Assembly: GCA_002712305.1 (NCBI GenBank)
Contig: PATE01000056.1
Location: 1-14,834, forward strand
DNA length: 14,834 bases
Origin: Gemmatimonadota bacterium
Lineage (GTDB): Bacteria > Latescibacterota > UBA2968 > UBA8231
Direction: 5' to 3'
Part shown: positions 114 to 14,834 of the stretch, in pieces
Layout: each line of letters opens with the position of its first letter
Numbering within the stretch: position 1 is the stretch's first letter
Notes under the pieces: model-generated
What the model saw: the letters and a program-made list of their open reading frames with translations, nothing else
Told to the model about the DNA's origin: nothing
Database searches by the model: none
Made by a program: the position numbers and the translations under genes

Positions 114-2450
114 ATAGTAACGGTTGGCTCCATAGCTTTTGATTCTATTGAGACCCCCAAAGGGAAACGGAATGCTATATTAGGTGGGTCATCTACTTTT
201 TTTGGTATAGCAGCATCTCTTTTTTCTAAAGTCTATATAATTGGAGTTGTAGGAGATGATTTTAGAGATGACCAATGGGCTCTTTTTAAAAAATATAATA
301 TCAATACTAACTCTGTAGAGATAAAACCTGGAAAAACATTTAGCTGGGGAGGGGAGTATAATCACGACTATTCTTTAAGAGAGACTTTATTCACAGAACT
401 TGGTGTTTTTGAGAATTTCAAACCTAATATTAATGAAAATTTTAATCAGCCTATTTTATATCTTGGAAATATTCAGCCTGAACTGCAATTTGATGTTATC
501 AATAAAGTGAAATCGCCATCCCTAATTGCTGCAGATTCAATGAATCTATGGATTGATTTATTCCCCGATCAGGTTTGGAACTTAATATCAAAAGTTGATA
601 TTTTCATGTTAAACGATGAGGAGGCCCTTGCCCATCTGCGTGTGGGGGAACAGATCTCGCGTCGTCGTCCCGCCCATGGCTGGCTGTTCCCCATGACCGG
701 TACCGCAGAGCCGCCCTTTGCAGAGGGAGCTCGCACGGCAATCTCACTTTACACGACCAATCTGGAACGCGAGGTGGATCTCGGCACTCTGTGGCTGCTC
801 AATCTGGCGTACATGACGGTGGGAGAATACCCACATGGGATACCAGAAAAATGGCGGCTTGCCCCTGAAGCCTTCGACTCGGAACAGGATGTGGGATTCT
901 TCCACGACGTAGCCCAACCCTCGGGTGTCGCCGTCACGGGTCACGCAGGCGGCAGTGTGATGGATGACTTCGACGGAGATGGCCTGTTGGATCTGATCGC
1001 GTCCTCAAGAGGTCTGCGAGATCAGATGCGTTACTTCCACAATCGGGGAGACGGCACGTTCGCCGACCGGACACGGATCGCCGGCCTCGAGGGCCAGATC
1101 GGCGGCCTCAACCTGTCCCACGCGGACTACGACAACGATGGCGACCGCGATCTGATCGTGTGGCGCGGCGCGTGGATGGGAGAAGCGGGACGCCACGCCA
1201 ACTCCCTGTTAAAGAACACGGGACGTGGGCGATTTGAAGATGTCACTGAAGCGGCAGGGCTCCTGTCCTTCCATCCCACGCACTCCGGTGCCTGGGCAGA
1301 CTTCGACAATGATGGCTGGTTGGACCTGTTCGTCGGCAATGAATCAAGCCCAGCCCCAAAACCGCCCCATCCGAATCAACTCTATCGAAGCGATCGAAAC
1401 GGGACATTTACCGACATTGCATCCACGGCCGGAGTCGATGGTGTGGGCTTCGCAAAGGGCGTCACTGTTGGAGATGTCGACAACGATGGTCTCGTCGACA
1501 TCTATGTGTCGAATCTGAATGGTGACAATCTGTTGTATCACAATCGGAGTCACGAATCGACACTGCGATTCGCTGACATCAGCGTGTCTGCTGGCGTGCA
1601 GGAACCCTACGTCAGTTTCCCCACCTGGTTCTGGGACTACGACAATGATGGCTGGCAGGATCTGTTCGTTGCAGGATTCGACATGGCCAACCTCGATGAC
1701 ATGGCGTTGATCTACCTCGGTGAGCCCTTCGAGGCTGAACACCCTCGCCTGTATCGGAATCGCGGAAACCTGACGTTTGAGGAACTCGCCTCCGAAGTGG
1801 GTCTCGACCGGATCATTCTGCCCATGGGGGCCAACTTCGGCGATCTGGACAACGACGGATGGCTAGATGCCTACTTCGGAACGGGCATGCCGGACATGCG
1901 CACACTGCTGCCGAACCGAATGATGCGCAACGATGGTGGCGCACGATTTGCCGACGTCACCTCCTCTGGCGGTTTTGGCACGGTACAGAAGGGACACGGC
2001 ATCAGCTTCGGTGATATCGATCACGACGGCGACCAGGACATCTACCAGGTCCTCGGCGCTGCCTTTGAGGGTGACGTCTATGAGAACGCATTGTTGGAAA
2101 ACCCCGGGCACGGACATCACTGGTTGACTCTGGAGTTGGAGGGCGTCGTGAGTCACCGAGATGCCATCGGCGCCAGAATCCATGCCGTGGTCGAGTCGAA
2201 AGACGGCGAACAGCGATCGATCCACGTCACAGTGGGGCATGGTGGCAGTTTTGGTTCCTCTCCCTTGCGGCAGGAGATCGGCCTGGGCGACGCGCGTCAC
2301 ATCGACGCCGTCGAAATCGTCTGGCCTGGCACGCAGACGCCGCAGAGGATTGTCGGCCTGGAGTTGAACCACGCCTACCACGTGCGTCAGGGGCAGACCG
2401 GCGTCACGCCGATCGAGCGACAGACCTTCGATCTTTCGCCAGACTCCTGA
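3..2450 (+). CDS. Composite open frame: FGE fragment + PfkB kinase fragment + FG-GAP/ASPIC-UnbV protein (probable chimera)
   Basis: The frame is open from base 3 to the TGA at 2448-2450 with no internal stop, and it is open at its 5' end because of the window edge. The first ATG, at 93, is not a real start: the in-frame bases before it encode conserved FGE-family sequence, and this Met lies inside that family's G-L-Y-D-M-x-G-N motif. Three unrelated proteins follow each other in frame, with joins near 102-117 and 612-627. Base composition jumps from AT-rich to GC-rich at the second join. Each upstream domain is cut before its essential C-terminal parts. I infer an artefactual chimera rather than a working fusion. 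The segments are described separately; only the last (about 621-2450) belongs with the rest of the window. A natural fusion cannot be excluded from sequence alone but would have no sensible domain logic. Confidence 0.75.
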   Translation, partial: RNTTPVNYYNGSLYGDFQTIDSYSEYGLYDMQGNIKEIVTVGSIAFDSIETPKGKRNAILGGSSTFFGIAASLFSKVYIIGVVGDDFRDDQWALFKKYNINTNSVEIKPGKTFSWGGEYNHDYSLRETLFTELGVFENFKPNINENFNQPILYLGNIQPELQFDVINKVKSPSLIAADSMNLWIDLFPDQVWNLISKVDIFMLNDEEALAHLRVGEQISRRRPAHGWLFPMTGTAEPPFAEGARTAISLYTTNLEREVDLGTLWLLNLAYMTVGEYPHGIPEKWRLAPEAFDSEQDVGFFHDVAQPSGVAVTGHAGGSVMDDFDGDGLLDLIASSRGLRDQMRYFHNRGDGTFADRTRIAGLEGQIGGLNLSHADYDNDGDRDLIVWRGAWMGEAGRHANSLLKNTGRGRFEDVTEAAGLLSFHPTHSGAWADFDNDGWLDLFVGNESSPAPKPPHPNQLYRSDRNGTFTDIASTAGVDGVGFAKGVTVGDVDNDGLVDIYVSNLNGDNLLYHNRSHESTLRFADISVSAGVQEPYVSFPTWFWDYDNDGWQDLFVAGFDMANLDDMALIYLGEPFEAEHPRLYRNRGNLTFEELASEVGLDRIILPMGANFGDLDNDGWLDAYFGTGMPDMRTLLPNRMMRNDGGARFADVTSSGGFGTVQKGHGISFGDIDHDGDQDIYQVLGAAFEGDVYENALLENPGHGHHWLTLELEGVVSHRDAIGARIHAVVESKDGEQRSIHVTVGHGGSFGSSPLRQEIGLGDARHIDAVEIVWPGTQTPQRIVGLELNHAYHVRQGQTGVTPIERQTFDLSPDS
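108..626 (+). pseudogene. N-terminal half of a PfkB-family carbohydrate/nucleoside kinase, broken at its 3' end
   Basis: About 170 residues match the start of PfkB (ribokinase-like) kinases. They show an opening strand V-T-V-G-S-I-A-F-D followed by T-P-x-G-K, the substrate-site motif G-G-S-S-T-F-F-G-I-A-A-S, then G-V-V-G-D-D-F, and the late L-N-D-E-E-A motif just before the break. Known members phosphorylate a sugar or nucleoside using ATP. The diagnostic C-terminal half, with the G-A-G-D catalytic Asp and the ATP-binding region, is missing; about 300 residues would be usual, so the fragment cannot be active. The likely native start would be an ATG where ATA-AAA-GAA now stands (105-113), which suggests a join using the shared bases AAAGAA. 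Composition is AT-rich. The substrate cannot be told. Confidence 0.8.
612..627. other. Composition breakpoint / chimeric junction between kinase and FG-GAP segments
   Basis: To the left, codons are AT-rich and encode PfkB sequence up to L-N-D-E-E-A. To the right, codons are GC-rich and encode CRTAC1-family sequence. The bases gatgaggaggcc could belong to either parent, so the exact joint lies within this stretch. No insertion-sequence end, inverted repeat or target duplication is visible. Confidence 0.8.
621..2450 (+). CDS. CRTAC1-like secreted FG-GAP/VCBS repeat protein with C-terminal ASPIC/UnbV domain (5' missing)
   Basis: About 608 residues of a protein family with extracellular calcium-binding beta-propeller repeats. 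It opens with the family's helical N-terminal region (L-R-x-G-E, then L-W-L-L-N-L-A-Y-M-T-x-G-E-Y-P). Seven D-x-D-x-D-G type calcium loops follow, near bases 963, 1122, 1296, 1470, 1632, 1839 and 2010. The ASPIC/UnbV domain fills about 2160-2420 (I-G-A-R, a G-H-G-G-S turn, L-R-Q-E-I-G-L-G, V-E-I-V-W-P-G). Such proteins are exported and are thought to bind ligands or surfaces; no enzyme activity is established. The signal peptide and start are absent because the 5' end was replaced by the AT-rich kinase fragment. Codon use matches the downstream genes, so this part is native to the GC-rich genome. The next + strand gene begins about 100 bp later. Confidence 0.88.
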   Translation, partial: EALAHLRVGEQISRRRPAHGWLFPMTGTAEPPFAEGARTAISLYTTNLEREVDLGTLWLLNLAYMTVGEYPHGIPEKWRLAPEAFDSEQDVGFFHDVAQPSGVAVTGHAGGSVMDDFDGDGLLDLIASSRGLRDQMRYFHNRGDGTFADRTRIAGLEGQIGGLNLSHADYDNDGDRDLIVWRGAWMGEAGRHANSLLKNTGRGRFEDVTEAAGLLSFHPTHSGAWADFDNDGWLDLFVGNESSPAPKPPHPNQLYRSDRNGTFTDIASTAGVDGVGFAKGVTVGDVDNDGLVDIYVSNLNGDNLLYHNRSHESTLRFADISVSAGVQEPYVSFPTWFWDYDNDGWQDLFVAGFDMANLDDMALIYLGEPFEAEHPRLYRNRGNLTFEELASEVGLDRIILPMGANFGDLDNDGWLDAYFGTGMPDMRTLLPNRMMRNDGGARFADVTSSGGFGTVQKGHGISFGDIDHDGDQDIYQVLGAAFEGDVYENALLENPGHGHHWLTLELEGVVSHRDAIGARIHAVVESKDGEQRSIHVTVGHGGSFGSSPLRQEIGLGDARHIDAVEIVWPGTQTPQRIVGLELNHAYHVRQGQTGVTPIERQTFDLSPDS

Positions 2451-2551: not shown

Positions 2552-3985
2552 ATGAAATCAATGAACGACTTCTTCCTTCGCTGGGCATTCTCGCTCATGC
2601 TTCTGTGGCTCGTCGCACCGGTCTCTGCGCAAGTGGTTGCCCGGGTGGGAGACACGGAGATTTCCGTTGAGGAGTATGAGGATCGCGCCCGGAGTCTGCG
2701 CCGATCCGGGTACAAGCACCTGCAATCCATGAACATGGACGCGAAACAGCAGTTGCTCGACGGAATCATCGCTCAGGAACTGCTTGTGTTGGAGGGCTAC
2801 AGGCAGGGCGTAGACGACGATCCTGTCATCGCCGCCGATCTTGCGCGCCACGAGCGGCGGGCCCTCATGAATGCGCTCTACGACACGCAGGCCCTGCTCG
2901 GCGACTATACATCAACAGAGGAGGAATTGCGGGCCTACTACCATGAAGCACAGTACGATATCGAAGTGAATGCCCGCCACATCGTGTGCGTCACCGAGGA
3001 AGACGCCTGGACAGTGGTCGAAGGTTTGCAGGCCGGTGGATCCTTCGATTCACTGCTGTCCATCTATTCGCTTCCGAGAATTCGTTCCCGCTTTGGACCA
3101 TCCGGATGGGTCGGGTGGTTTCGCACAGGTTCCCTCTTCGAGGACATCATCGCGCCCATGAATGAGCTCGCCGAAGGGGAATACCATCCGGCACCGGTGA
3201 AGACGGAGCTCGGTTATCATGTCTTCCTCCTGGAGGCTCGCCGAGACAGACCTTTCGAGACGTCCGTCGACTTTGCGCGGGACAAGGTGCGCACCCAACT
3301 CCGGGCGAATGACATGGAGGCGTATGTCAATTCGCTCAGGGAGCGGTATGAAATCACCATCGATCAGGACGCCCTGGAAATCGTGTCCCGCATCGACCAG
3401 ACCGTGGGTATGTCTGACGGAAGCCAGACCCTGGTGTCCTGGAAGGACGGCCATCTGAGTATCGCAGACTACATGGGGATCGTCGAGGCGGGTCGGGCCA
3501 AACATCCGTCTGAGGTGGACCTGGAAGATCTGAGCAGAAGTGTGGACAACCATGCCGGACAGCATGTTATGGTGGCAGAGGCACGGCGCCTTGGCCTCGA
3601 CCAGGAGCTGTCTGTGCGTCGCCAGTTTGAGGATCGTCGCCGCGAGTTGTTCGCCAAGTGGCTCTTCGTGCAGGAAACCCGGCGTCGAGTCGAGGCGGAC
3701 ACGAGTGCCGCCAGTGTTCGCCAATTCTACGAGCAGAACCTCGACATCTATACGCGTGAAGATGGACAGGTCACTGATTTGACCGTTGTGGAAGGTAGTA
3801 TCCGAGCTTCCATGCTGCGCTATGCGGAATCGGCTGCCATGGACGAATTCATCAGCGAGCTACAGGATCGCTATGCAGACCAGATCGTCGTCGATGAGGT
3901 CGCTCTATCGCATACGTTCCCGGAGGGAAACCTGCCCCCCACAAGAGCGACGCCCCCAGAGCCAACACGCTCAGATCTCGAGTAG
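2552..3985 (+). CDS. Secreted parvulin-type peptidyl-prolyl cis-trans isomerase / SurA-PrsA-like chaperone
   Basis: This 477-residue protein likely helps fold outer-membrane or secreted proteins in the periplasm. Residues 1-26 form a signal peptide ending V-S-A before Q27. An N-terminal chaperone segment follows (V-A-R-V-G-D-T-E-I-S-x-E-E-Y, then L-L-D-G-I-I-A-Q-E-L-L), with a parvulin rotamase domain at about 139-231. That domain keeps its hallmarks: R-H-I near residue 143, the G-x-x-G-W-x-G-W-F core, P-V-K-T-E-L-G-Y-H near 217-223, and the paired histidines. Residues 280-460 form a long helical second half, followed by a Pro/Thr-rich tail. No strong ribosome site precedes either ATG at 2552 or ATG at 2561; I keep the first. 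The gene converges on the barrel-protein gene across a stem-loop. Its proximity to several secreted proteins fits a folding role, which is inference. Confidence 0.88.
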   Translation: MKSMNDFFLRWAFSLMLLWLVAPVSAQVVARVGDTEISVEEYEDRARSLRRSGYKHLQSMNMDAKQQLLDGIIAQELLVLEGYRQGVDDDPVIAADLARHERRALMNALYDTQALLGDYTSTEEELRAYYHEAQYDIEVNARHIVCVTEEDAWTVVEGLQAGGSFDSLLSIYSLPRIRSRFGPSGWVGWFRTGSLFEDIIAPMNELAEGEYHPAPVKTELGYHVFLLEARRDRPFETSVDFARDKVRTQLRANDMEAYVNSLRERYEITIDQDALEIVSRIDQTVGMSDGSQTLVSWKDGHLSIADYMGIVEAGRAKHPSEVDLEDLSRSVDNHAGQHVMVAEARRLGLDQELSVRRQFEDRRRELFAKWLFVQETRRRVEADTSAASVRQFYEQNLDIYTREDGQVTDLTVVEGSIRASMLRYAESAAMDEFISELQDRYADQIVVDEVALSHTFPEGNLPPTRATPPEPTRSDLE

Positions 3986-4025: not shown

Positions 4026-4058
4026 GAAGAGCCAGGCAGGACCCTGGCGTGCTCTTTC
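4026..4058. terminator. Bidirectional stem-loop between convergent genes
   Basis: AAGAGC (4027-4032) pairs with GCTCTT (4051-4056), and CAGG/CCTG extends the stem with a small bulge. It lies 40 bp after the isomerase stop and directly abuts the stop codon (4058-4060) of the minus-strand barrel gene. The right arm is followed by a short pyrimidine run on the + strand. The T-tract is weak on both strands, so it may be a modest terminator or an RNA-stabilising hairpin. Confidence 0.55.
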
Positions 4059-6703
4059 TATCGGTCCGTTCCGAGACCGGCAAATACCGTGATGAACGAC
4101 AGAAGTTCCGATGACGCCGGAGACGCCTGGATGTCACGCCGGATCCACCTGACCCCCACGTTCGTCGTCAGATCATAACCGAGATACGCCGAACGATTGG
4201 CGATCTGCCCCGCCAGGATCCACGTATTGCTGTCGAGCTTGAACCCCGAGGGCAGCGGATCCGGCTTCTTGCGCAGGTTATTGAAGATCTCGTATTCGGC
4301 GCCCGCGATGAAGCTGATGCTTCGGTTGAAGGGTCTGATGAACTGGAGCGACAGGATCTCCGTCAACTCACGTGTCTTCAGATTCGTGGTACGCGGGGGT
4401 ATTCGACTGCTGTAAAGCTGTTTCCATCGAGGTAGCAGTGTGAACTGCTCGATTTCGACGGGGTACTCGCCCTTCGTCATCACGCCGAAGAAGGACTGAT
4501 CCCGCAACCCCGTGTCCTCGTCTCCAAGTTGATTGTAGGATTCGTGCTTCACCTTCGCCGTGAACGGTAGGAAGCGATTGTATCTGACTTCCAGGTATGA
4601 CGTGTTCACGAAGGCATCCTGTGCGGCAAGCGGGTCGCGGGTGAAGACGGCGACACCGCGGGTACCTGGTTGCTCGGTCCACAACAGGACATCGTCGGGG
4701 ATGTCGTCCTTGACCTTGCGCGGATGCGTGATGAACCACGCGCTGAAATCCTGCTCGGGGATCTCGTGTTTGGCGGTGAGCAGGAGATAGATCGACTGAT
4801 TCTCTCTTGCCGTTCGGAGAAGGCGCTGATCGAGGTAACCGGCCATGACGTTGAACTGAGGGCGCACCTCGACGCCGGCGTAGGCGTTGTATCCTCTCCG
4901 GCCCCGTTTATACGGATAGTCCGCCTCGTTGTCATCCTCGAAACGATCGATGACGCCGTTGCTGTTCATATCCATGCCGAACAGATACTCCGGCGGCTCG
5001 ACGTCGAAGCGTATGAAGGGCTCAGTGTAGTCAGGTTGCGAATTGAAGTTCCGATTGAAGTCGGAGATATCGTCGTTGTTCTCGTCGATTCCCGGGAAGA
5101 CGGCGTTGTCCGACAGCAGCCCCTGGCCCTGACGGGTATTGACCCGTTCACCATAACTCAAGCGCGACCAGTCGGGCAGCTCATCCTGGTCGTCGTTGTC
5201 GTCAACGAACTCGTAGAGATGACGAGACTCGTTGTCGTAGAACACCTCACCCTCGGCATTGGGGATGAAAGCGCTCGTCGAGTAGTCCGCGTCGATGCTG
5301 AACGCCTCAGCAAAGAGTGTCCATGGATAACTTCGTTGCTGCGCAGTCAGGTAGAAGGCATCGGCTGTGTTCTTTGCCAGAGCCTGCTCCTTGATGATGT
5401 TCTCATTCGGGAAGCGACGAAACTGTGAATTGCGCACGAACTCACCACGCAACTCGAATCCGCCCACATCGGTGATCTGCAGATCGAAACCGAGAAGACG
5501 ATTCGCTGTGGGCAGACCATATCGAAAGCGGTGGAAGGCTTGATTGGAGCCATCCTTCACGTTACCCGACGCACGCAGCACGGGCAGAAAGACTGGCGAA
5601 CCAAGGTTGTTCGTCTGCTTGTTTGACGTGATTTCGACTCGATAGTCATTGGCCAGGACCAGACCGATCTCGATCAAACCGATCTCACGGAAGTCGATGA
5701 TCTCGTCTTCGACACTCGGTGAAAAGTCTTCAATGTTGTAGGTCAGCGTGATGGCATCGGTACCACTCGCCTCGATCACGCCTCGACGGCGTACGCCCCC
5801 TTCGACAGTGGGCGAGATATCGTCAGTGTGCTCCACGCCATCTATGAAGATGCGCCAACGAGACAGGAGGGCGCCGCCCTCGCCATCTTCTGGTGAGTCG
5901 TCGGTCACGCGCACCACGACAGAGCGGACGAAATCGTTGTTCATCGGCCCACTGAGCAAGCCGCTCATGGAATTGTCACCGAAGGGCAGCTCAGAGTTTC
6001 GATGCGCTGCGTTGACGAAGGTCATTCCGAGGCGGGCAAAGTCTCCAACCTGTGCCTGACCACGGGCGCCATACATATTCGTAAAGGTGCTGAAGGGAAC
6101 GGCGCCACCGAATTCCGATTGAGCGATCTCGGCCGTGTTGTTTACGCGCGACGAGAGCAGTGTGACGGCATACTTGTCGGTCTGGATGTCCCACTGAACG
6201 CCATCGAAACGCGGCTTCGAGAAGGTAAGCGGCGTCAGCGTCGTACGAATCCCGTCGCCGATCATCAGCGACGAATGGAACTGGCCTGCGTGACTGGAAG
6301 AGATGAGGATATTGTTGAACCAGGAACGAAAGCGCGGATTCTTGGTGATGGAGCTACCGTTGCTGGCCGGATAGTCTTCCGTCCAGTCGTAGATCTGCCA
6401 GCCCTGCGTGATGTAGTTGCCGTACACGTCATAGAACGGCGAACCTTCGAGGAACACGTTGTTGTAACGCTCGTAGTTATTGCGTGCGTAGTTGGAGTAT
6501 GTCTCCTGTCGCCAGTCGTAGAGCTTGTAGAGCCGTTGGGGAAGATACCACTTGCGCACGGAGGGTACGAGCGTTGCAGGCGCGATCTTGGTCCCCGACG
6601 TGTAGTAGGGATTCTCGAACCCGGTGGCACGTTGGGCAGTGGCCGCCTCGGGCGCCGATATCATCGAGCCGAGACAAACCAGAAGTGCGATTCCGCGTCT
6701 CAC
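4058..6703 (-). CDS. Large exported barrel-like outer-membrane protein with acidic Ca-binding-like loops
   Basis: I do not recognise a named family. The GTG at 6703 is preferred as start because CGGAG lies 6 bases upstream (6714-6710) and the product then begins with a clean signal peptide of about 24 residues ending A-T-A-Q. An upstream ATG at 6727 has no good ribosome site and would spoil the signal. The 881-residue product opens with aromatic-rich sequence (Y-Y-T-S-G, W-Y-L-P-Q-R-L-Y) and a motif G-D-G-I-R-T-T-L-T-P-L-T. The middle (about bases 4915-5215) has three Asp/Asn-rich loops like EF-hand or thrombospondin-3 calcium sites. The last 200 residues alternate polar and hydrophobic residues as in beta-barrel strands. 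It is the last gene of the five-gene minus-strand operon, about 50 bp after the preceding stop. I infer an outer-membrane location and a role as partner or exporter of the three secreted paralogues. Confidence 0.75.
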   Translation of the reverse strand: MRRGIALLVCLGSMISAPEAATAQRATGFENPYYTSGTKIAPATLVPSVRKWYLPQRLYKLYDWRQETYSNYARNNYERYNNVFLEGSPFYDVYGNYITQGWQIYDWTEDYPASNGSSITKNPRFRSWFNNILISSSHAGQFHSSLMIGDGIRTTLTPLTFSKPRFDGVQWDIQTDKYAVTLLSSRVNNTAEIAQSEFGGAVPFSTFTNMYGARGQAQVGDFARLGMTFVNAAHRNSELPFGDNSMSGLLSGPMNNDFVRSVVVRVTDDSPEDGEGGALLSRWRIFIDGVEHTDDISPTVEGGVRRRGVIEASGTDAITLTYNIEDFSPSVEDEIIDFREIGLIEIGLVLANDYRVEITSNKQTNNLGSPVFLPVLRASGNVKDGSNQAFHRFRYGLPTANRLLGFDLQITDVGGFELRGEFVRNSQFRRFPNENIIKEQALAKNTADAFYLTAQQRSYPWTLFAEAFSIDADYSTSAFIPNAEGEVFYDNESRHLYEFVDDNDDQDELPDWSRLSYGERVNTRQGQGLLSDNAVFPGIDENNDDISDFNRNFNSQPDYTEPFIRFDVEPPEYLFGMDMNSNGVIDRFEDDNEADYPYKRGRRGYNAYAGVEVRPQFNVMAGYLDQRLLRTARENQSIYLLLTAKHEIPEQDFSAWFITHPRKVKDDIPDDVLLWTEQPGTRGVAVFTRDPLAAQDAFVNTSYLEVRYNRFLPFTAKVKHESYNQLGDEDTGLRDQSFFGVMTKGEYPVEIEQFTLLPRWKQLYSSRIPPRTTNLKTRELTEILSLQFIRPFNRSISFIAGAEYEIFNNLRKKPDPLPSGFKLDSNTWILAGQIANRSAYLGYDLTTNVGVRWIRRDIQASPASSELLSFITVFAGLGTDR

Positions 6704-6707
6704 ATCA

Positions 6708-6716
6708 GTCTCCGTC
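6708..6716 (-). promoter_or_regulatory. Ribosome binding site that decides the barrel gene start (GTG 6703)
   Basis: On the minus strand the sequence reads ACGGAGACTGATGTG: a GGAG core 6 bases before GTG. The upstream in-frame ATG (6727) is preceded by no purine-rich site. The GTG start also places a Arg-Arg-led signal peptide at the very N-terminus. Confidence 0.6.
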
Positions 6717-6753
6717 AATTTGTCCATTGCCGATCATCAGTAGACCCCAAACA

Positions 6754-9477
6754 TCAATAGACAACATGTAAGGGCTTCTGCATGATCTGGTTTCTTGCGT
6801 CCGTCTTCATCTCGATCCTCGTCAGATACACGCCCGGTGGAACGGGCTTTCCACCGACGAGGCCATCCCATGTGTAGACCGGGCGATTCGACTCGATGTC
6901 CGGTTCGTTCAGTTCGGCCACGAGCTGTCCATCGAGAGAATAGATCTTGATCTCAACCTCGACCTGGGGCCGTACCAGGGTAAATGCGACTTCGTAGGTG
7001 TCGTTGATACCATCACTGTTCGGCGTGAACACCACTTTGTGCGTGAAATTGGTAATCAGCTCCCTGCCCACAGCCACATCCGGCACATGCACTTGGTCGG
7101 CGCCGAATTTCAGGGGCACGACACCTTGAGCGTTGTCGTCATCCTCAGCGCGCGATACATCAACACGGAACACGGACGGGCTCCTGATCAGTCTTGTCTC
7201 GAAGGCGACATCGACCGAATCTGCCAGAACCTTCATCGGCAGATTGATCAGCAGTGCGCCATCGCTGCTCGTCTCCACCGTCGCCTCGACGGGCACGCCG
7301 CCTACACTCACCTGACCGAAAGACAGGCTGTCAGCGCGTTCGGGAAGATCGATTCGAATGTGGTTGAAACCGGCGTCTGACTCGACCAGCTCGAGAACGG
7401 GGGTCCGTACGGCAGCCTGTTGCTCCGCATCAAGCGTGACGGTCACGTCATTGACCGCTGCTTCGAGCGTATCGAGCATCCCGTGTAGATCCACCCCCTG
7501 GACGAAGCGGACGTCAAAGATGGCTCGCCGCGGCGACATGGTGAAGGTGGTCCTGGCGACAGACTCCATCGCCCCGAAAGCGGCCCGCAGTGGCGTCGTC
7601 AGCGAAACTCTGACGAGGCTATCGGTGGTGACATCCACCAGGCTGTCTGTCACCGTTGGGATACGGCCGGATGCCGCCAGCCGGTTCAGCTGCGACCTGG
7701 CGACCCGATCAAGCGTATGTCGCAAGGTCACCGTCGCGGGCAAACTCGGATGGATCACGTAATTGAAGGACTGCAGCGAATCCAGCGGGGCTTCGTTGGG
7801 CGAAACGATGCCGCTCACCCCCTCTGCGATCAGTGGCAGGTTGGCAACGATCCGCAGCGAGCGGAGGATAGGCATCACATTGGGATCTTCGCTGATCAGA
7901 CGCACCCGGGCCCGCATCCACCGTCGAGGAGAGGGGGACTGGAACTCCTGGCCCGAGAATCTGTGGGGATCACTCCAGGCACTCCATGTGTCGTCGCGTA
8001 CCTCTTCCTCGACGACGGGACCCCGGTTGCGAGACCTTTGCGCCTCCCATGCCTGTTTCGTGATTTCGTTGCCGTTGACGAGGAAATACCTGGTAATCGA
8101 ATCGAATCCGTTGCCCGTCTGTGTGTCTACCTCAATGCGGGTGCCCTCTGGGATGTCACCCTCCCACTCGATCCGGCGAATGCTGCGCGCCCCACCGAGG
8201 GACAGATCGTCCGATTCGATCTCGACCTGCCGTGGATAACCCTCTGCATGGTAGACGAACAGTTGAAGGGCTCGGTGGAACTGCTGGGGTTTCGTCACCC
8301 GCCACAACAATAACCGCATGTCGAGAGGTGGAAACCGGAAGTCGAACATGTGACGTCCGGAGTTTTCCACCTGAGAGAGCACATCGTAGTGAAAGGGCCC
8401 TTCCGTAACGGGATCGGCACGATTGCTCGGGGATCCGTCCGACGTGAGAAAATCAAAGATCGACCAACTCCCCTGCTTGTCGCGCTCGAAGCCATAGATC
8501 ACGGGGCTTCGACCTGCAACGATGGGGAAGAAGATCACGCGGTCGATGCGAAAGATGCTGCCGAAGTCGATCGTCTGCCACACACCCGACTTGCGCCAGT
8601 CCCCCTTGTCGGAACCCTCGATCGTCCAGGTTCGGAACCCAACGTCTTCGTCAAGCATCTCGTCGGCGCCACTTCCCTTTCCACAGCCTTCGCAGTCGCG
8701 GTCCTTCGATGTCCACGTCGTACCGCCCCAGTGCGGCTCTTCATCTTCTCGGCGAGTTGGCGTACCGACCATGCTGGACAGATTGAAGCCCACGCCATCG
8801 ACTTCGATCTCTGCTAGAGCAGCATCCGGCGTCGCACCCGTTGCCTCGAACCGGATAAAGCGCACCAAATCGAAGTTCATGGTCGAGCTGAGGTCGAGAT
8901 GGGCTCCCTCGGCGCTGTTCAAGCCGGTCATGCTCAGATTGAACTCGACGACCTGAGAGGTATTGTTGTTGATCGGGCGACCGATCCGTTCGTAGACGAT
9001 CTGGGGCTGAATGCTGCCAAACACGGGGATGCCTGGACTGGCGAAGACGGAGAAGAAGCTGAAGGGGCGAGCCCCCTCTTCGTCAGGGAAAATCACGCGG
9101 ACCTTGTCAGCCACAACGACGCGACCCAGATCCAACTCGATCCACCACAGCTGCAGGGGATCATTCGGGTTCGGCTTCCAGTACGTCGTCTCGTCCTGGT
9201 CTCGAATGCGGTCTGCGGAGAACTGATTGGTTGGGGTGCGAGCAGGACGCGAACCGAACTGGCCAATCGTAATCGACGAGTGATCGTCGATATCAGCCAC
9301 GGCGTTTTCCGTCGCGCCAAACCGCTTCACCGTCACCCCTTCGTCGGTGACGTTCACGAGACCTGCCGGATACTGCCAACTCGCGAATTCATCCGTATCA
9401 AAGATCAGATCCTGGCCAATGGCCGGAATGGCGATCAACAGAACGGACAGTGTGAGGATTCGAGATAAGCGTTTCAT
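6754..9477 (-). CDS. Secreted discoidin-like protein with FlgD/gliding-type C-terminal domain (paralogue 3 of operon)
   Basis: The product is 907 residues from the ATG at 9477, chosen because M-K-R-L-S-R then starts a standard signal peptide ending A-I-G-Q; a second ATG at 9489 adds only four residues and has no clear ribosome site. Domain order: a first F5/8-type-C (discoidin)-like segment (about 85-235: W-W-I-E-L-D-L-G-R-V-V-V-A-D-K-V, then V-R-F-I-R-F-E-A); a C-E-G-C pair near residue 265; a second similar segment (G-V-W-Q-T-I-D-F-G); a W-S-A-W-S-D-P segment; beta-rich repeats; and a C-terminal domain with F-T-P-N-S-D-G-I-N-D, I-Y-S-L-D-G, W-D-G, P-P-G-V-Y and terminal V-V-Y. Discoidin folds usually bind glycans or surfaces; the C-terminal domain resembles sorting/anchor domains. 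No catalytic residues are recognised. It lies about 20 bp after the preceding stop. Confidence 0.82.
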   Translation of the reverse strand: MKRLSRILTLSVLLIAIPAIGQDLIFDTDEFASWQYPAGLVNVTDEGVTVKRFGATENAVADIDDHSSITIGQFGSRPARTPTNQFSADRIRDQDETTYWKPNPNDPLQLWWIELDLGRVVVADKVRVIFPDEEGARPFSFFSVFASPGIPVFGSIQPQIVYERIGRPINNNTSQVVEFNLSMTGLNSAEGAHLDLSSTMNFDLVRFIRFEATGATPDAALAEIEVDGVGFNLSSMVGTPTRREDEEPHWGGTTWTSKDRDCEGCGKGSGADEMLDEDVGFRTWTIEGSDKGDWRKSGVWQTIDFGSIFRIDRVIFFPIVAGRSPVIYGFERDKQGSWSIFDFLTSDGSPSNRADPVTEGPFHYDVLSQVENSGRHMFDFRFPPLDMRLLLWRVTKPQQFHRALQLFVYHAEGYPRQVEIESDDLSLGGARSIRRIEWEGDIPEGTRIEVDTQTGNGFDSITRYFLVNGNEITKQAWEAQRSRNRGPVVEEEVRDDTWSAWSDPHRFSGQEFQSPSPRRWMRARVRLISEDPNVMPILRSLRIVANLPLIAEGVSGIVSPNEAPLDSLQSFNYVIHPSLPATVTLRHTLDRVARSQLNRLAASGRIPTVTDSLVDVTTDSLVRVSLTTPLRAAFGAMESVARTTFTMSPRRAIFDVRFVQGVDLHGMLDTLEAAVNDVTVTLDAEQQAAVRTPVLELVESDAGFNHIRIDLPERADSLSFGQVSVGGVPVEATVETSSDGALLINLPMKVLADSVDVAFETRLIRSPSVFRVDVSRAEDDDNAQGVVPLKFGADQVHVPDVAVGRELITNFTHKVVFTPNSDGINDTYEVAFTLVRPQVEVEIKIYSLDGQLVAELNEPDIESNRPVYTWDGLVGGKPVPPGVYLTRIEMKTDARNQIMQKPLHVVY

Positions 9478-9497
9478 GTCGATTCCCATAGTGGCGA

Positions 9498-11582
9498 TCA
9501 GTAGGCGACCGCAACCGGTTCAACTCGCGTGACCGTGCCTTCGTCGACGTCGATCTCGACGCGGATCAGATACATTCCTGGAGCCACGACCTGGCGATCA
9601 TCGTCCGTGCCATCCCAGACGGCACCGAAGGCACCAGATGAGGCTCGGTCTGCGAGGATGTTGCGCACCCGTCGGCCTGCCAGGTCGAAGACCTCGACCC
9701 TGAACACACCGTCCTGAACACCGAACAAGTCGAAGAGAATCCGCGTGTCGTCGTTGATGTCATCATCATTCGGTGTGACGACGGGTGTCGACAGTCGAAT
9801 ATCACGCAAGACACCGAATCTGGTATCGCTGGCAATCACCTGAACGCCATTGCTGTTGACGTCGTCACGTGCGTCGCCCGCCTCGATCGATTGGGGCAAC
9901 TGATCCCCCACGCCACTGTTGGAAATGCGTCCCTCGAGGAACTGAGACGCCTGGAAAATGGCGGAGCGAAACCGAATCCTCATGGCTCGATCCTGCTGAA
10001 TCACCGCGGGAAAGGTCAGCGCGATTCGGTTCGTCTCCTGGGTCAGTTCGAAGTCCGTTCCTTCGGTGGCAGCTACACCTTCGATCTCGAGATCTACAAA
10101 CCGAGCGCCGGCAGGCAAGGACAGTTCGACACCGTCGTAGCCGGATAGAGCCGTGTCGCCTGCAACAGTGCGTAGATCGTAGGCGAACAGGGTATCGACG
10201 CCCATGGGCACTTCAACCTCTCCCTGGCTTGAAAGTGGCACACCATCGAGAGATACCTCGGCGATCGCACTATCGGCCAGTAGCGGCGACACTTCGAAGG
10301 AAAGGGAGTCCAGAACACCGAAGGTCATGGGATCTTCGGTGACGATCTCAAATGAAAACTGCAGATACTTGCTGCCATCCGATGACCTGTTCTCTGCCCC
10401 CGATCGTTCGTAGGGCACAGACCAGTTGTTCCAGTTGGTGATGTCATCGGCCCGTCGTGCCCGGAAACCGGGAACGCCCTCACTAAAGCGGCCATCCACT
10501 CGTGGTGCACGGAAGTATGTCGTTTTGTCGACGAGCAGGGAACGGCCCAGATCGTCGAAGATGAAGTAGTCCGTTGGATACTCATCACTGCCAGCACGGG
10601 TACGCAGCACCAGTTCCACGGGGGCATCAGGGTCTTCGAAAATCTCTCCCGAGGGTGCTTCACGGTAGCGGGTGAAACTCCAGTCGACGCGACCCAGACT
10701 GACGGGAGTACCGAAGAAGTGCGGCGCCGAGACGTATCGGGCCTCCTGCGGATAACCCCGACCAAAAGCTTTGATCTCCGCCACCAGGATCGTGCGCAGC
10801 TCCTGCCCCCAACGGAACCGAAGGAATCGGGTAAAAGCCAGATCGGTCGAGAGCGACACGATGCTCTTATTGTTGGCGAAGGCGGTTGCCACGATGTCGT
10901 CGAGTGCATGATAGCCGGCGCTTCCGACAGACGTCGTTTCGTCCTCAAAGATCAGCCACTCCACCGGCATATTGGTCCGGCTCACTTCGAAACTGGATGG
11001 GAACAATTCCCGCTGCCGCTGATTCTCTGAGTTGATGCCGCTCTGCGGCGGAAAGAAGACGATGCTGTCGATGGGCACAGGTACGGCGAGGTCGATGGTG
11101 TAAAAGATGAGGCCGCTGGGATCCCCCTTCCTTTCCTGGGCGTCGCTCCGATTGTGAGTAATCGCCGCCGTCAGTTCGTCACCGTCGACGAGGCTCAGAT
11201 TGTTGGCTCGGGCGTTCACTTCTCCGTTGTCCCAGAGACGTGGGTGCCAGCCCACCTGAAGGGTGTCCGCCTCGATCTGACGGGGACCCTTGTGAATGGT
11301 CCATCGGTAACCGAATCGACTCAGTTGCCTGGACGTGGGAGATGTACGCACGGGCTCCCGGATGAGATTGACGCCCTTTTTTAGCTGCAGAGGTTGCACA
11401 GAGCCGGGTTGAACCGAATCATCGAGAGCAATCCACTGCTGCACGGCATTCGCCCAGGGCTCGCCGCCCTGACCACCCACGACCCAGCTCGTAGCCTGAG
11501 CGATGGCCTGCCCGGGGAGCAGCTGAACCGCCACCGTCGCGATCACTGTGGTGATCGTCCGTGTCATTCCAAGCCGGCTCAA
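9498..11582 (-). CDS. Secreted discoidin-like protein with FlgD/gliding-type C-terminal domain (paralogue 2 of operon)
   Basis: This 694-residue protein starts with TTG at 11582; a GGGAG sequence lies 7 bases upstream, and the start overlaps the TGA stop of the preceding gene, suggesting translational coupling. A later ATG (11567) is too far from that site. The signal peptide ends near A-I-A-Q (residue 29). The mature N-terminus S-W-V-V-G-G-Q-G-G aligns with the S-W-R-V-G-G-S-G of the preceding gene's product, and V-D-T-x-F-x-Y-D-L-R-T is also shared, so the two are clear paralogues. In between are a discoidin-like segment (Y-T-I-D-L-A-V-P-V-P-I-D-S-I-V-F-F-P, then R-F-L-R-F-R-W) and W-N-N-W-S-V-P. 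The C-terminal domain (about 601-694) has V-T-P-N-D-D-D-I-N-D, V-F-D-L-A-G-R-R-V, W-D-G, A-P-G-M-Y and ends V-A-Y. Probably exported and surface-displayed. Confidence 0.83.
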   Translation of the reverse strand: MSRLGMTRTITTVIATVAVQLLPGQAIAQATSWVVGGQGGEPWANAVQQWIALDDSVQPGSVQPLQLKKGVNLIREPVRTSPTSRQLSRFGYRWTIHKGPRQIEADTLQVGWHPRLWDNGEVNARANNLSLVDGDELTAAITHNRSDAQERKGDPSGLIFYTIDLAVPVPIDSIVFFPPQSGINSENQRQRELFPSSFEVSRTNMPVEWLIFEDETTSVGSAGYHALDDIVATAFANNKSIVSLSTDLAFTRFLRFRWGQELRTILVAEIKAFGRGYPQEARYVSAPHFFGTPVSLGRVDWSFTRYREAPSGEIFEDPDAPVELVLRTRAGSDEYPTDYFIFDDLGRSLLVDKTTYFRAPRVDGRFSEGVPGFRARRADDITNWNNWSVPYERSGAENRSSDGSKYLQFSFEIVTEDPMTFGVLDSLSFEVSPLLADSAIAEVSLDGVPLSSQGEVEVPMGVDTLFAYDLRTVAGDTALSGYDGVELSLPAGARFVDLEIEGVAATEGTDFELTQETNRIALTFPAVIQQDRAMRIRFRSAIFQASQFLEGRISNSGVGDQLPQSIEAGDARDDVNSNGVQVIASDTRFGVLRDIRLSTPVVTPNDDDINDDTRILFDLFGVQDGVFRVEVFDLAGRRVRNILADRASSGAFGAVWDGTDDDRQVVAPGMYLIRVEIDVDEGTVTRVEPVAVAY

Positions 11583-11594
11583 TATGCCACTCCC
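11573..11594 (-). promoter_or_regulatory. Overlapping stop/start (TGA/TTG) with ribosome site inside the upstream gene
   Basis: On the minus strand GGGAGTGGCATATTGAGC holds the ribosome site GGGAG, the TTG start (11582-11580) of paralogue 2 and the TGA stop (11581-11579) of paralogue 1. This geometry usually couples translation of the two genes. Confidence 0.6.
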
Positions 11595-13576
11595 AGAATC
11601 TTGGCGCTGTGGAAGGTCTCGGCGTCAGTTGTGGCGGCGAGTCGGAGGATATAGAGACCTGGGGGCACCAGATCTCCGCCGTCGTCTCGACCGTCCCAGT
11701 CTTCATCGTAAGCGCCAGCCGCCCGCCGGTCGAAGACGAGGCGACGCACGCGACGGCCACTCAGATCGAGGATTTCCGCCTCAACTTCGATCCCGCCGAC
11801 GAATTGAGAGAGGATGAGCAGAATCTCTGCTTTGTCATTTCTGCCATCGTCATTGGGAGTGATCACGGACGTCGACGCCCGCGCCTCCACGATGGGACGA
11901 GTCTCGACGCTGAAGGCGTGGGTGACACTCGTGGAGATCTCCGCAGAAGCGTTGCCGGGATGCACAGGATGGGGTGGCGCATCGCCCTCACCGATCAGCC
12001 AGGCTTTGACGGGTGTGTTGTGTTCGAGAAGACGTAAGTCGAACAGCAGTCGGAAGGAACTGGAGATGTTCACTGGATCGAAAAACACATCAAAGCCCTG
12101 CTCCGTCTTGACCTCCTGCAGACCTTCCACGGGCTGCAGGGGATCACCAGACAGCAGACCCGTGAAGACCGGGGGCGGAAAGGCCTCGACACGAATTCCG
12201 CGAAACCCCGGCAGACTCGCCGAATCGAATTCGGTTCGCAGATCATAGACGAAGGCCGTATCGATACCGCCGGGCACCTCCACGATGCCATCGGCGGGGT
12301 TTGGATCATCGGCCAGGGCCAGTTCACCGATGGCTGTCGACACCAGTCGCGAGAAATGTTCGATCTCCAGCGAGTCGATACGCATGACGTTGTCAGCGTC
12401 ACCCGTGAAGGCGACGCGAAACTGCAGATACTCGCGTGGGCTGAACAGATCGATGGGGACGGTGAGGGTCCCTGTGGAGTCGATGGTCAGCGACGGCGAC
12501 CAGGCGCTCCAATTGTCGACATCGCCGCGGATGTCACCCTTGACGAAGTCTCGGATCGGGCCCTGCTCCGCTACCGGCAAAGCGAGATACGTCGATCTGT
12601 TGACTTCGCCGAGGATCTGCTTGGTGCTGGGGTCAACCTGGAACAGCGCCTGCCGCGGAAGTCGCTTGTCGTACTCCTCAAACTCGACCTCGAACTGCGA
12701 TCCCGTGTCCCTGTCGCGGCGAAAGTAGACATTGGGCGTCTCGTCGGCACCGGTACGAATCTGAATAACGGCTGTGGGGCCTTCATCATCCTCGGCCTCG
12801 ACACCACCATCGCGCAGCAATCGCGTTGCGTGGAGAGTCAGGTCGCCAAAATTGACGGGCGCGTCAAAGGAGTGCAGCTCTGACTCGTAGCTGGCAATGG
12901 GGACGAATCCTTCACCGTAGATCTCGAACTCCGCCAGATTGAAGGCGGTCTTCGACAAAACGAGCAACCGCAGGAACCTCCCCTGCAGAGATGCGAACTC
13001 CAGATCGACGACGATGTCTTTGTTCACCTCGACGCGACGCAGTTCCTCATACAGAGGTCGCCGAATGTCGTTGTAGTTCACCCCATCGTTGACGAAGATC
13101 GCGAAAGCCTCGATGAAGGAATCCGGGTCGTCTTCGGCGGGAAAGAAACGAATTCGGTTCAGCGGGAAGGGCGCACCCAGATCAAAGAAGAAGGCGGCGC
13201 CGGACTGGTTTCTGACAGCTTTAAAGAGAGCGTCCGTAGAGGTGTTGGGATCGCCGTCCAGCAAGTCCAGAGGCCCGTCGATGAGATTGAACTGGGTATC
13301 ATTCGACCAAGCCCGGGGCTGACCGGCGGCGACGAAGTCTGTGGGCTGGCCGTTTGCCCAGACGAGTCCTGTCTCCGTGAGCAACTCGATGAGATTGGCG
13401 CCCTCACGCAACTCGAGGGGCTGCAGGCCGCCATCCACCTCCAGGGCGCCGCTCTGCGTCAGCGCAATCTGGTTGAATCCGTCACCCGATCCACCGACTC
13501 GCCACGACTGGGCTTGACCGGAGATTGTAGTCGCCATCAGCGCCGTGATAGCGATGATCGCGAAAAGACGAGCCAT
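11579..13576 (-). CDS. Secreted discoidin-like protein with FlgD/gliding-type C-terminal domain (paralogue 1 of operon)
   Basis: This 665-residue protein starts with ATG at 13576, three bases after the lipoprotein stop, so both are on one transcript. The signal peptide ends near I-S-G-Q-A-Q. The mature start S-W-R-V-G-G-S-G-D is shared with the next gene's product, followed by L-Q-P-L-E-L-R-E-G-A-N-L-I. A discoidin-like segment (F-F-D-L-G-A-P-F-P-L-N-R-I-R-F-F-P, then G-R-F-L-R-L-L-V) leads to N-W-S-A-W-S-P and beta-rich repeats with I-D-T-A-F-V-Y-D-L-R-T. The C-terminal domain (about 571-665) shows I-T-P-N-D-D-G-R-N-D, I-L-D-L-S-G-R-R-V-R, W-D-G-R-D-D-G-G, P-P-G-L-Y and ends G-V-A-Y. No enzyme motif is seen. 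By family it should be exported and bind a surface or polymer; the ligand is unknown. Confidence 0.83.
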   Translation of the reverse strand: MARLFAIIAITALMATTISGQAQSWRVGGSGDGFNQIALTQSGALEVDGGLQPLELREGANLIELLTETGLVWANGQPTDFVAAGQPRAWSNDTQFNLIDGPLDLLDGDPNTSTDALFKAVRNQSGAAFFFDLGAPFPLNRIRFFPAEDDPDSFIEAFAIFVNDGVNYNDIRRPLYEELRRVEVNKDIVVDLEFASLQGRFLRLLVLSKTAFNLAEFEIYGEGFVPIASYESELHSFDAPVNFGDLTLHATRLLRDGGVEAEDDEGPTAVIQIRTGADETPNVYFRRDRDTGSQFEVEFEEYDKRLPRQALFQVDPSTKQILGEVNRSTYLALPVAEQGPIRDFVKGDIRGDVDNWSAWSPSLTIDSTGTLTVPIDLFSPREYLQFRVAFTGDADNVMRIDSLEIEHFSRLVSTAIGELALADDPNPADGIVEVPGGIDTAFVYDLRTEFDSASLPGFRGIRVEAFPPPVFTGLLSGDPLQPVEGLQEVKTEQGFDVFFDPVNISSSFRLLFDLRLLEHNTPVKAWLIGEGDAPPHPVHPGNASAEISTSVTHAFSVETRPIVEARASTSVITPNDDGRNDKAEILLILSQFVGGIEVEAEILDLSGRRVRRLVFDRRAAGAYDEDWDGRDDGGDLVPPGLYILRLAATTDAETFHSAKILGVAY

Positions 13577-13579
13577 CGA

Positions 13580-14302
13580 TCAGTTGTCTTTCACGGCGTC
13601 AGCAAGTGTGTTTCCGCGCAGGATATCGCGGCCAAACCTGAAGGTCAGGTCGATCTGTTCGACGGGCTCGTCGGCATAATCGAAACGGACTGCGATGTCA
13701 TTGAGATCCACGTCGATCTGCGTGACGTCATCGTCGAGACGGGGAAACACGATGTAGCCGTCGGCGTCGGTGCCACTGAAGATGAAATTGCTGGAAAACA
13801 TGGTCCGGTTCAGTACGTCCGTTCGGGTACGGAAGTCTGTGCGGCCCTGCCCGGTACGGCCCACCCAGTGCGCTCGATAGTATTCGTACAACTCCGCGAA
13901 GCTCAGCGGATCGTATTGTCGTCGGTTCGAGGCCGTAATCTGACTGACGTCTGGATCGATGCGGACCTTCGGAAATTGATAGTTGGCCACTTCCAGGCGA
14001 AAGACGGTGAAACGGCTCGGCGTCCAGTTTTCACCCGGTTTCGTGAGCTCACCAAAGGTGTATGGATTGACCTCCACGTTGCCCGATGGGGACACGAGCC
14101 GGTTCAGCTCCTCGTCCGTCATGGGGCGCAGTGTGATAGCCAGACGTTCGAGATCGTAGGTGATCGAGCCGTCGTCGTTGACGGTCATCCCCTCGACCTG
14201 CTCGTGAACCGGTCGGAAGGAAGTCGGAAAGTAGCGACCACAGGCGGGGGCCAGCACCAGGGCAACCACCGCCGCGACACAACAGATTCGCCAGCTATTC
14301 AC
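13580..14302 (-). CDS. Small probable lipoprotein, first gene of the surface-protein operon
   Basis: I do not recognise the family. The 240-residue product starts at GTG (14302), with an AGGATGAG purine-rich stretch just upstream on the minus strand. A hydrophobic N-terminus ends L-A-P-A-C-G, so Cys21 is a likely lipidation site, although the Pro at -2 is unusual for a lipobox. The rest is a soluble, beta-rich region of about 215 residues with M-T-V-N-D-D-G-S-I-T-Y-D, F-T-V-F-R-L-E-V-A-N-Y-Q-F-P-K-V and, near the end, D-A-D-G-Y-I-V-F-P followed by I-D-V-D-L-N-D-I-A-V-R-F-D-Y. The gene heads five closely spaced co-directional genes; only three bases separate it from the first secreted paralogue. 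I infer an envelope-anchored partner of those proteins. A plain secreted protein cleaved by signal peptidase I is the alternative. Confidence 0.7.
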   Translation of the reverse strand: MNSWRICCVAAVVALVLAPACGRYFPTSFRPVHEQVEGMTVNDDGSITYDLERLAITLRPMTDEELNRLVSPSGNVEVNPYTFGELTKPGENWTPSRFTVFRLEVANYQFPKVRIDPDVSQITASNRRQYDPLSFAELYEYYRAHWVGRTGQGRTDFRTRTDVLNRTMFSSNFIFSGTDADGYIVFPRLDDDVTQIDVDLNDIAVRFDYADEPVEQIDLTFRFGRDILRGNTLADAVKDN

Positions 14303-14345: not shown

Positions 14346-14391
14346 AAAAGGTATGTGCAGAGATGGGAAAGAGTAGGAAAACAACGCAAAT

Positions 14392-14421
14392 CGGGCCAGC
14401 CGGTGACTACCGGCTGACCCG
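14392..14421 (-). terminator. Strong stem-loop terminator after the partial upstream gene
   Basis: CGGG-C-CAGCCGGT, loop GACT, ACCGGCTG-A-CCCG forms a 12-bp GC-rich stem with one internal C/A mismatch. On the minus strand it is followed by a T-containing stretch (TTGCGTTGTTTTCC). It sits about 55 bp after the stop codon at 14475-14477, so it probably ends the upstream transcript and separates it from the five-gene operon. Confidence 0.7.
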
Positions 14422-14474
14422 ACAAATGTACGTCCTACCAGGGGTTGCCCCCCAGAGGAAACTCCCTCAAAGAT

Positions 14475-14834
14475 CTAGCGGAAGGAGTTTTTGATGTTGC
14501 CCCACGTCGACGTCTGGACTGCAGTTGCGGTGCCGGCGGTGTACTCGCCGATTCTCAGCAGCGTCGCGAGCGCGTAATACTGACGACCGGAGGCCTCGGG
14601 ACCACGTGTGGTCCAGTCATTGCGGCCACCCGGGGTACCATCTTCGTTGGTACCGAAGGAAGAGTCGGGACCCTCACCATCCTCATACCAGAAAGCGAAG
14701 GGGAATCCGGCGCCATCAGGACCCGCGACAGCATCCATCTGCCACTCTTCACTGGCCGAAGGACCAGCGTCGTCCTGGAAAGCCAGAACCTTGATGTCGA
14801 ACTCGTAGACGGTGGTTCCACCATCCGTCCACAG
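14475..14834 (-). CDS. C-terminal end of an unidentified secreted-type protein (5' cut by the window edge)
   Basis: The frame is open from the window edge to a TAG at 14475-14477 and gives about 119 residues. It continues upstream of the ATG at 14738 with coherent sequence (T-T-V-Y-E-F-D-I-K-V-L-A-F-Q-D-D-A-G-P), so that ATG is internal. The visible part is acidic and Gly-rich, with V-Y-E-F-D-I, F-A-F-W-Y-E-D-G and a D-W-T-T-R-G-P-E-A-S-G-R-Q-Y-Y-A-L-A-T-L-L stretch. The pattern of a V-Y-E-F-x-I strand followed later by a W/G-rich loop recalls CBM9/DOMON-like beta-sandwich ends, but this is only a weak resemblance. The protein ends N-S-F-R, not with the V-x-Y of the neighbouring paralogues. 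The hairpin after its stop suggests a separate transcript. Confidence 0.65.
   Translation of the reverse strand: MWTDGGTTVYEFDIKVLAFQDDAGPSASEEWQMDAVAGPDGAGFPFAFWYEDGEGPDSSFGTNEDGTPGGRNDWTTRGPEASGRQYYALATLLRIGEYTAGTATAVQTSTWGNIKNSFR

Follow-up and report, generated by a model that had tools for sequence, protein, structure and literature searches.

We have analysed a 14,834-nucleotide stretch of DNA, called here the window, which is the whole of contig PATE01000056.1 (G000:C77) of a 4.77-Mb Latescibacterota genome in 146 contigs. The window carries five tightly packed minus-strand genes (positions 4058-14302) in the order L, D, D, D, B, where L denotes a probable lipoprotein, D a protein with discoidin and C-terminal sorting domains and B a predicted beta-barrel (P0001 in the window); C, a CBM9-like secreted protein, is encoded upstream of L. 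We propose that this locus is one copy of a paralogous surface capture module of a Latescibacterota type, which would function in the manner of SusCD without being homologous to it, and we put the probability of this reading at about 0.45. The reading starts from what we observed, namely the gene set and its order, the paralogy of the loci, the domain calls, the predicted barrel, the presence of SprA, and the co-occurrence and co-divergence described below; from these we infer a physical complex, a ligand and uptake. Assembly of D and B with each other at the cell surface is the part of the proposal that we consider probable.

Gene order and paralogous copies

L (13580..14302) encodes 240 residues. 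The first D gene (11579..13576) encodes a secreted protein of 665 residues with an F5/8 type C (discoidin) domain and a type-B-like C-terminal domain (CTD) of the type IX secretion system (T9SS), ending in GVAY; the second (9498..11582) encodes a secreted protein of 694 residues, counted from a TTG codon, with a type-B-like T9SS domain that ends in AVAY; and the third (6754..9489), of 911 residues and also secreted, combines an F5/8 type C domain with a CHU_C T9SS domain (E 5.3e-8) and ends in HVVY. The B gene (4058..6727) encodes 889 residues with the C-terminal sequence FITVFAGLG. The intergenic gaps are +3, -4, +8 and +26 bp when the longest starts are taken, and about +3, +11, +20 and +50 bp with shorter starts; the second D probably starts at an internal ATG near 11567, 15 nt inside the TTG codon. 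Upstream of L, and also on the minus strand, the last 119 residues of C (14475..14834) are clipped by the contig end and include the conserved terminal motif TAVxxxTWGxIKxxF. A preliminary description of this DNA had reported five co-directional genes with short gaps, which is borne out within the choice of start codons. Its list of five parts also stands, but it missed C, the sixth component, which lies at the edge of the window, and it did not recognize the D tails as T9SS domains.

Relatives keep these genes together. Beyond the window we found 14 orthologous loci in 12 other genomes (L068, L071 and L105-L116), every one with the order C-L-D-D-D-B, which with the window makes 15 loci in 13 Latescibacterota genomes; in one of these loci (L108) a D gene is broken by a frame break. 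Other families of the phylum have a shorter C-L-D-D-B version (L121 and L122). Among the matches listed, the closest named relatives of the B gene come from Latescibacterota assemblies, which include the single-contig chromosomes OX638377.1 (G018) and OY282352.1 (G024) and some that are filed as Gemmatimonadetes or Handelsmanbacteria; a few of the matches listed stand under other phylum names, and these are possibly misnamed or contaminated bins. Genes were called on extracted stretches with a simple open reading frame picker, which in DNA so rich in GC put some genes on the wrong strand.

The window locus is one among dozens of paralogous loci per genome. Searches of the 2 complete genomes with the window B gave 48 first-look candidates in G018, where 47 distinct B genes were recognized, and 47 in G024; matches to L numbered 15 in each. 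The gene immediately upstream of the 47 B genes of G018 is a D in 30 cases, another B in 9 and a C in 2, with no labelled neighbour in the remaining 6, and 56 of the 87 type-B-like tails listed for this genome have a B gene no more than 6 kb away, against 7.5 expected by random placement. Together with the 15 orthologous loci, the 30 adjacent D genes place the gene order beyond chance. A divergent B subfamily forms tandem arrays of two or three genes in 5 loci (L069, L076, L098, L100 and L101), and in most of these one D with a type-A-like, lysine-ended tail and one with a Y-ended tail adjoin the arrays.

The barrel, its secreted partners and the accessory proteins

B is predicted to be an outer-membrane barrel of a family that has no Pfam entry. 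AlphaFold2, run on an alignment of 76 homologues, returned a large beta-barrel (predicted local distance difference test, pLDDT, 74.9; predicted template modelling score, pTM, 0.74) with long paired strands from approximately residue 150 to 884, about 22 when counted from the strand list. The 881-residue barrel-like protein of the preliminary description is thus upheld by the model and by its matches in the PDB, with 881 residues corresponding to an internal GTG and 889 to the longest start. With a periplasmic C-terminus, the extracellular side would hold an insertion (about residues 245-404) and an acidic loop that is conserved (about 479-609). Within the acidic loop is an EF-hand-like sequence, DMNSNGVIDRFE (residues 586-597; 4937..4972, minus strand), in which D586, N590, D594 and E597 are invariant among the 76 sequences; the strict EF-hand pattern occurs in 69 of 159 B proteins and in 2 of 159 shuffled ones. 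The N-terminal 110 residues are conserved and modelled with low confidence, and could fill the lumen.

The matches of the B model in the PDB are all large barrels, SlpA (Z 13.6), FimD (12.8), TonB receptors (about 12) and part of SprA (11.8), and since large barrels all score alike (Z 10-13) we regard the structural match as generic. The window B has no Pfam match and no NCBIfam match at E values up to 1, TIGR03519 (PorP/SprF) included, and neither B nor L has sequence relatives among PDB structures; one remote B paralogue matches Pfam SlpA_C at 4.2e-4, under the cut-off. Two identities for B were considered and rejected: that of a TonB receptor or SusC, since the window B has no Pfam plug (PF07715) and no profile similarity to the TonB receptors that the genome encodes separately (hhalign 0.8%), and that of a PorP/SprF homologue, since no profile similarity was found (hhalign 1.8% against PorV/PorP-like proteins).

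As read from their translations, all three window D proteins begin with hydrophobic, signal-like sequences. Pfam F5/8 type C matches two of them under the gathering cut-off (E 5.8e-6 and 5.5e-4), and CHU_C/FlgD_ig match all three, CHU_C over its gathering cut-off in one and FlgD_ig in the other two. The tail is of a Y-terminal type (VAY/VVY) on an FlgD-like domain that scores under the TIGR04131 cut-off, with a value of 32.6 bits in the window against a cut-off of 35. Of 67 D proteins whose last residue is Tyr, CHU_C was found in 64, FlgD_ig in 64 and F5_F8_type_C in 26. In most B-linked D proteins the domain opens with TPNGDGxND and the chain closes with V[AV]Y or a near variant, the final Y being invariant; the remaining FlgD-type proteins in these genomes have NPFNPxT and a final K or R. 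SprA (TIGR04189) scores over cut-off in the window's own genome, where it is full-length and lies at G000:C91, away from the locus, and in 58 of 60 relatives, B-less ones included. PorV-family proteins are present in all 10 genomes checked and a PorP/SprF-family gene over cut-off in none of the same number; a search for the T9SS motor protein GldM gave no match, nor did its controls. From these domain calls, D is very probably sorted by the T9SS and exported through SprA. Since the D tails are T9SS domains and SprA is encoded elsewhere, B is probably not the exporter of D, and the dedicated export module offered in the preliminary description is not supported.

We used an alignment of the tails as the query against 9 B-carrying and 7 B-less genomes, which as sampled are not independent of each other. 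Full-length tail matches were observed in all 9 B-carrying genomes, at approximately 99-123 bits in families f1, f5, f8 and f9 and at 79-89 bits in f6. The 7 B-less genomes (f2, f3, f4 and f7) gave 58 bits or less, and their best matches stop before the C-terminus. Families f2-f4 share a class with f1, and f5, f6, f8 and f9 lie outside that class, so that the B and tail traits agree with each other across class borders.

The 2 proteins also diverge together. Over 30 D-B pairs of G018, the B distances correlate with those of the N-terminal part of D (r 0.57, Mantel p 0.0005) and weakly with sorting-domain distances (r 0.28, p 0.001); a full-length alignment gave 0.61 for the D body and 0.19 for the sorting domain, with samples of 95 columns from the body ranging from 0.47 to 0.70. 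At the level of sequence distances, these values favour co-adaptation of B with the body of D rather than a tail-specific pairing.

C homologues are secreted proteins of about 300 residues that precede L, D and B in most loci. Pfam CBM9_1 matches 10 of 39 of them, a profile of the family matches the structure of the CBM9 of Thermotoga maritima xylanase at 2.3e-6, and a C-terminal motif like TAVExxTWGxIKxxF is present in 36 of 44. Between C and L in the window lies a hairpin (14390..14423, minus strand), the 81-nt segment around which folds at -42.8 kcal/mol (z -5.1). Hairpins of -22 kcal/mol or stronger occur within 110 nt after 93% of C genes, compared with 12% after D, 16% after B and 2% in gene interiors, and the hairpin sequences after C differ from locus to locus in about 40 other loci. 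The hairpin is likely to be a conserved regulatory feature which, by analogy, would yield more C than downstream products; such an excess of the upstream product is familiar for the periplasmic binding proteins of ATP-binding cassette (ABC) operons.

L has a Cys at position 21 that is invariant in 43 homologues, most of which have a canonical lipobox. Its AlphaFold2 model (pLDDT 88.7) is mainly a beta-sandwich, with helices, of an immunoglobulin/adaptin-ear/MPT63-like topology, and its fold matches (arrestin, adaptin-ear and MPT63) are weak, with Z up to 8.8, and carry little functional information. L has no Pfam match, the SusD family included. In 2 places (L219:7920-10569 and L234:6283-8980) we observed a separate operon of C, L and a PorV/PorP-like gene, without B and divergent from a tail-bearing D gene; judged from these operons, L may partner the PorV/PorP-like protein.

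Neighbouring genes and the window end

Convergent with B is a plus-strand gene (2552..3985) for a SurA/PPIC-type peptidyl-prolyl isomerase (Pfam Rotamase_2 2.6e-8 and SurA_N_3 5.9e-5). A SurA-like gene in this opposite orientation lies at the B end of 9 of the 14 orthologous loci, and its product may serve B or D as a chaperone. Beyond it, also on the plus strand, is a gene (630..2450) for an FG-GAP/UnbV_ASPIC protein, as called with Pfam. Genes of this kind cluster around B in G018, where 38 of 53 lie within 20 kb of a B gene against 10.8 expected (p 0.002, by rotation). Neither PorV-family genes, of which 1 of 10 lies within that distance, nor TonB receptors, with 3 of 28, showed an enrichment, so that the UnbV_ASPIC excess is not an effect of genomic crowding alone. 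Some B loci adjoin sulfatases and solute-binding proteins with sugar-type ABC permeases. PMT_2 and/or tetratricopeptide repeat (TPR) proteins are encoded in L081, L082, L090 and L094, directly downstream of B in the last 3 of these, with a mannosyltransferase-like gene in L081, L082 and L090; the PMT_2/TPR proteins near B may glycosylate surface proteins.

At the other end of the window, positions 1-630 have 31-35% GC and encode a piece of a PfkB-like kinase, which is fused in frame to the FG-GAP/UnbV protein of 58-60% GC; a homologue of this protein has a different N-terminus. The junction near position 630 is most likely a chimeric assembly join, the first approximately 630 bp being foreign.

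Readings of the module

The mechanism we have in mind is as follows. Sec would carry D over the inner membrane and the SprA translocon of the genome would take it through the outer one, after which D would dock by its body on B, the barrel with the putative calcium loop encoded just downstream, with the 2 proteins diversifying together. C, made in excess owing to the hairpin, and L would hold or pass on the captured ligand, and B would be the pore or receptor that passes it inwards. The ligand would probably be a carbohydrate, as is suggested by the carbohydrate-type domains, discoidin in D and CBM9 in C, and the approximately 47 B copies per complete genome resemble a substrate-specific repertoire. 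Uptake of glycans by the module, which we argue from analogy, is a possibility that we place a little short of even. That B stands for a new class of outer-membrane receptor or transporter, with an outer subunit D delivered by the T9SS and a SusCD-like repertoire made from unrelated parts, is a more tentative proposal.

The module has in common with the SusCD systems of Bacteroidota that pairs of a surface binder and a large barrel are massively paralogous, with carbohydrate-binding accessories and with sulfatases or transporters beside some copies. It differs from them in that B has no TonB plug and there is no homology to SusD, in that the binder is predicted to be delivered by the T9SS rather than being a surface lipoprotein, and in that its uptake function is a proposal. 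Several observations weigh against capture and uptake. B has neither a TonB plug by Pfam nor profile similarity to the genome's TonB receptors, which leaves uptake by it without an evident energy source. At least 22 tail-bearing D genes of G018 have no B within 10 kb, and some B loci adjoin glycosyltransferase-like PMT/TPR genes or FG-GAP proteins, not catabolic genes. Also, joint duplication would give the same co-divergence as binding, and the sorting domain is short.

The type B CTD genes of Bacteroidota are commonly followed directly by a porP/sprF-like gene, and the PorP/SprF proteins bind and anchor the CTD proteins (PMC12618676, PMC9143113). The module resembles this arrangement in its CHU_C/type-B-like domain (TPNGDGxND), its downstream barrel gene, and the SprA and PorV-family proteins of the genome. 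B, which occupies the corresponding position directly downstream of D, could accordingly be the counterpart of the PorP/SprF shuttle, taking D from SprA by its tail and anchoring it as part of an adhesive or protective coat; the lack of PorP/SprF over cut-off in the 10 genomes and the co-occurrence of tail with B across families are consistent with this. Yet B, of about 880 residues, is not of the 14-strand PorP/SprF type and has no profile similarity to it (1.8% hhalign probability against PorV/PorP-like proteins), L and the CBM9-like C stand in place of PorE, and there are dozens of copies. Pairs of type B CTD and shuttle are reported to be largely specific (PMC12618676), yet B shows no co-divergence with the D sorting domain. 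In the f6 genomes, moreover, all 4 loci (L215, L216, L217 and L218) have the order D, PorV/PorP-like, B, so that B can coexist with a shuttle-like protein; this order is a possible intermediate between the type B layout of Bacteroidota and that of the window. We consider the SprF-like anchor unlikely as a full account, although it is the main rival to capture and could be partly true alongside it.

The remaining explanations appear to us improbable to differing degrees. The genes might encode co-regulated surface proteins that form no physical complex, which would suit the purely genomic evidence assembled here; against it stand the adjacency of D and B over dozens of divergent paralogues and the co-divergence of B with the D body, and we give it little weight. 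Slightly less credit goes to B as a tether, or as a porous part of a surface layer in which D lies outermost, after the barrels of Deinococcus SlpA and the S-layer deinoxanthin-binding complex (SDBC). Such a barrel, also large and of the outer membrane, is the best predicted-structure match of B together with FimD (Z 13.6 and 12.7), and the sub-threshold SlpA_C match points the same way; but Z is similar for all large barrels, the Pfam search of the window B found no SLH domain, and approximately 47 divergent copies per genome are unsuited to one layer protein. The partner genes are not known from the Deinococcus SlpA system. Least probable is a dedicated exporter of D of the two-partner or usher type, as might be suggested by one barrel beside several secreted proteins and by FimD among the structural matches. 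The T9SS domains of D, the separately encoded SprA and the many tail-bearing D genes without a nearby B all disagree with it, no window protein has a Pfam usher or chaperone match, and the FimD match is no better than those of other large barrels.

For the undescribed envelope system or surface complex of the preliminary description, the linkage and the barrel prediction hold, but the layout is wider than was described, with C upstream, the SurA-like isomerase, and dozens of copies. The adhesive layer also offered there is neither favoured nor disfavoured by these results. We found no paper that joins Latescibacterota with the T9SS, which, with incomplete literature coverage, is weak evidence of novelty; a genome paper of 2015 on Latescibacteria makes no mention of discoidin, FlgD or type IX secretion (PMC4454575).

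Latescibacterota are uncultured and widespread degraders. A barrel family that has no Pfam entry, occurs in dozens of copies per genome and goes with its own kind of T9SS cargo tail would account for much of the envelope of these bacteria, and delivery by the T9SS of the outer half of an uptake receptor would become testable. The observations suggest a class of T9SS cargo that is paired with a barrel other than PorV or PorP, and the module may be a route by which Latescibacterota capture and take in large food molecules.

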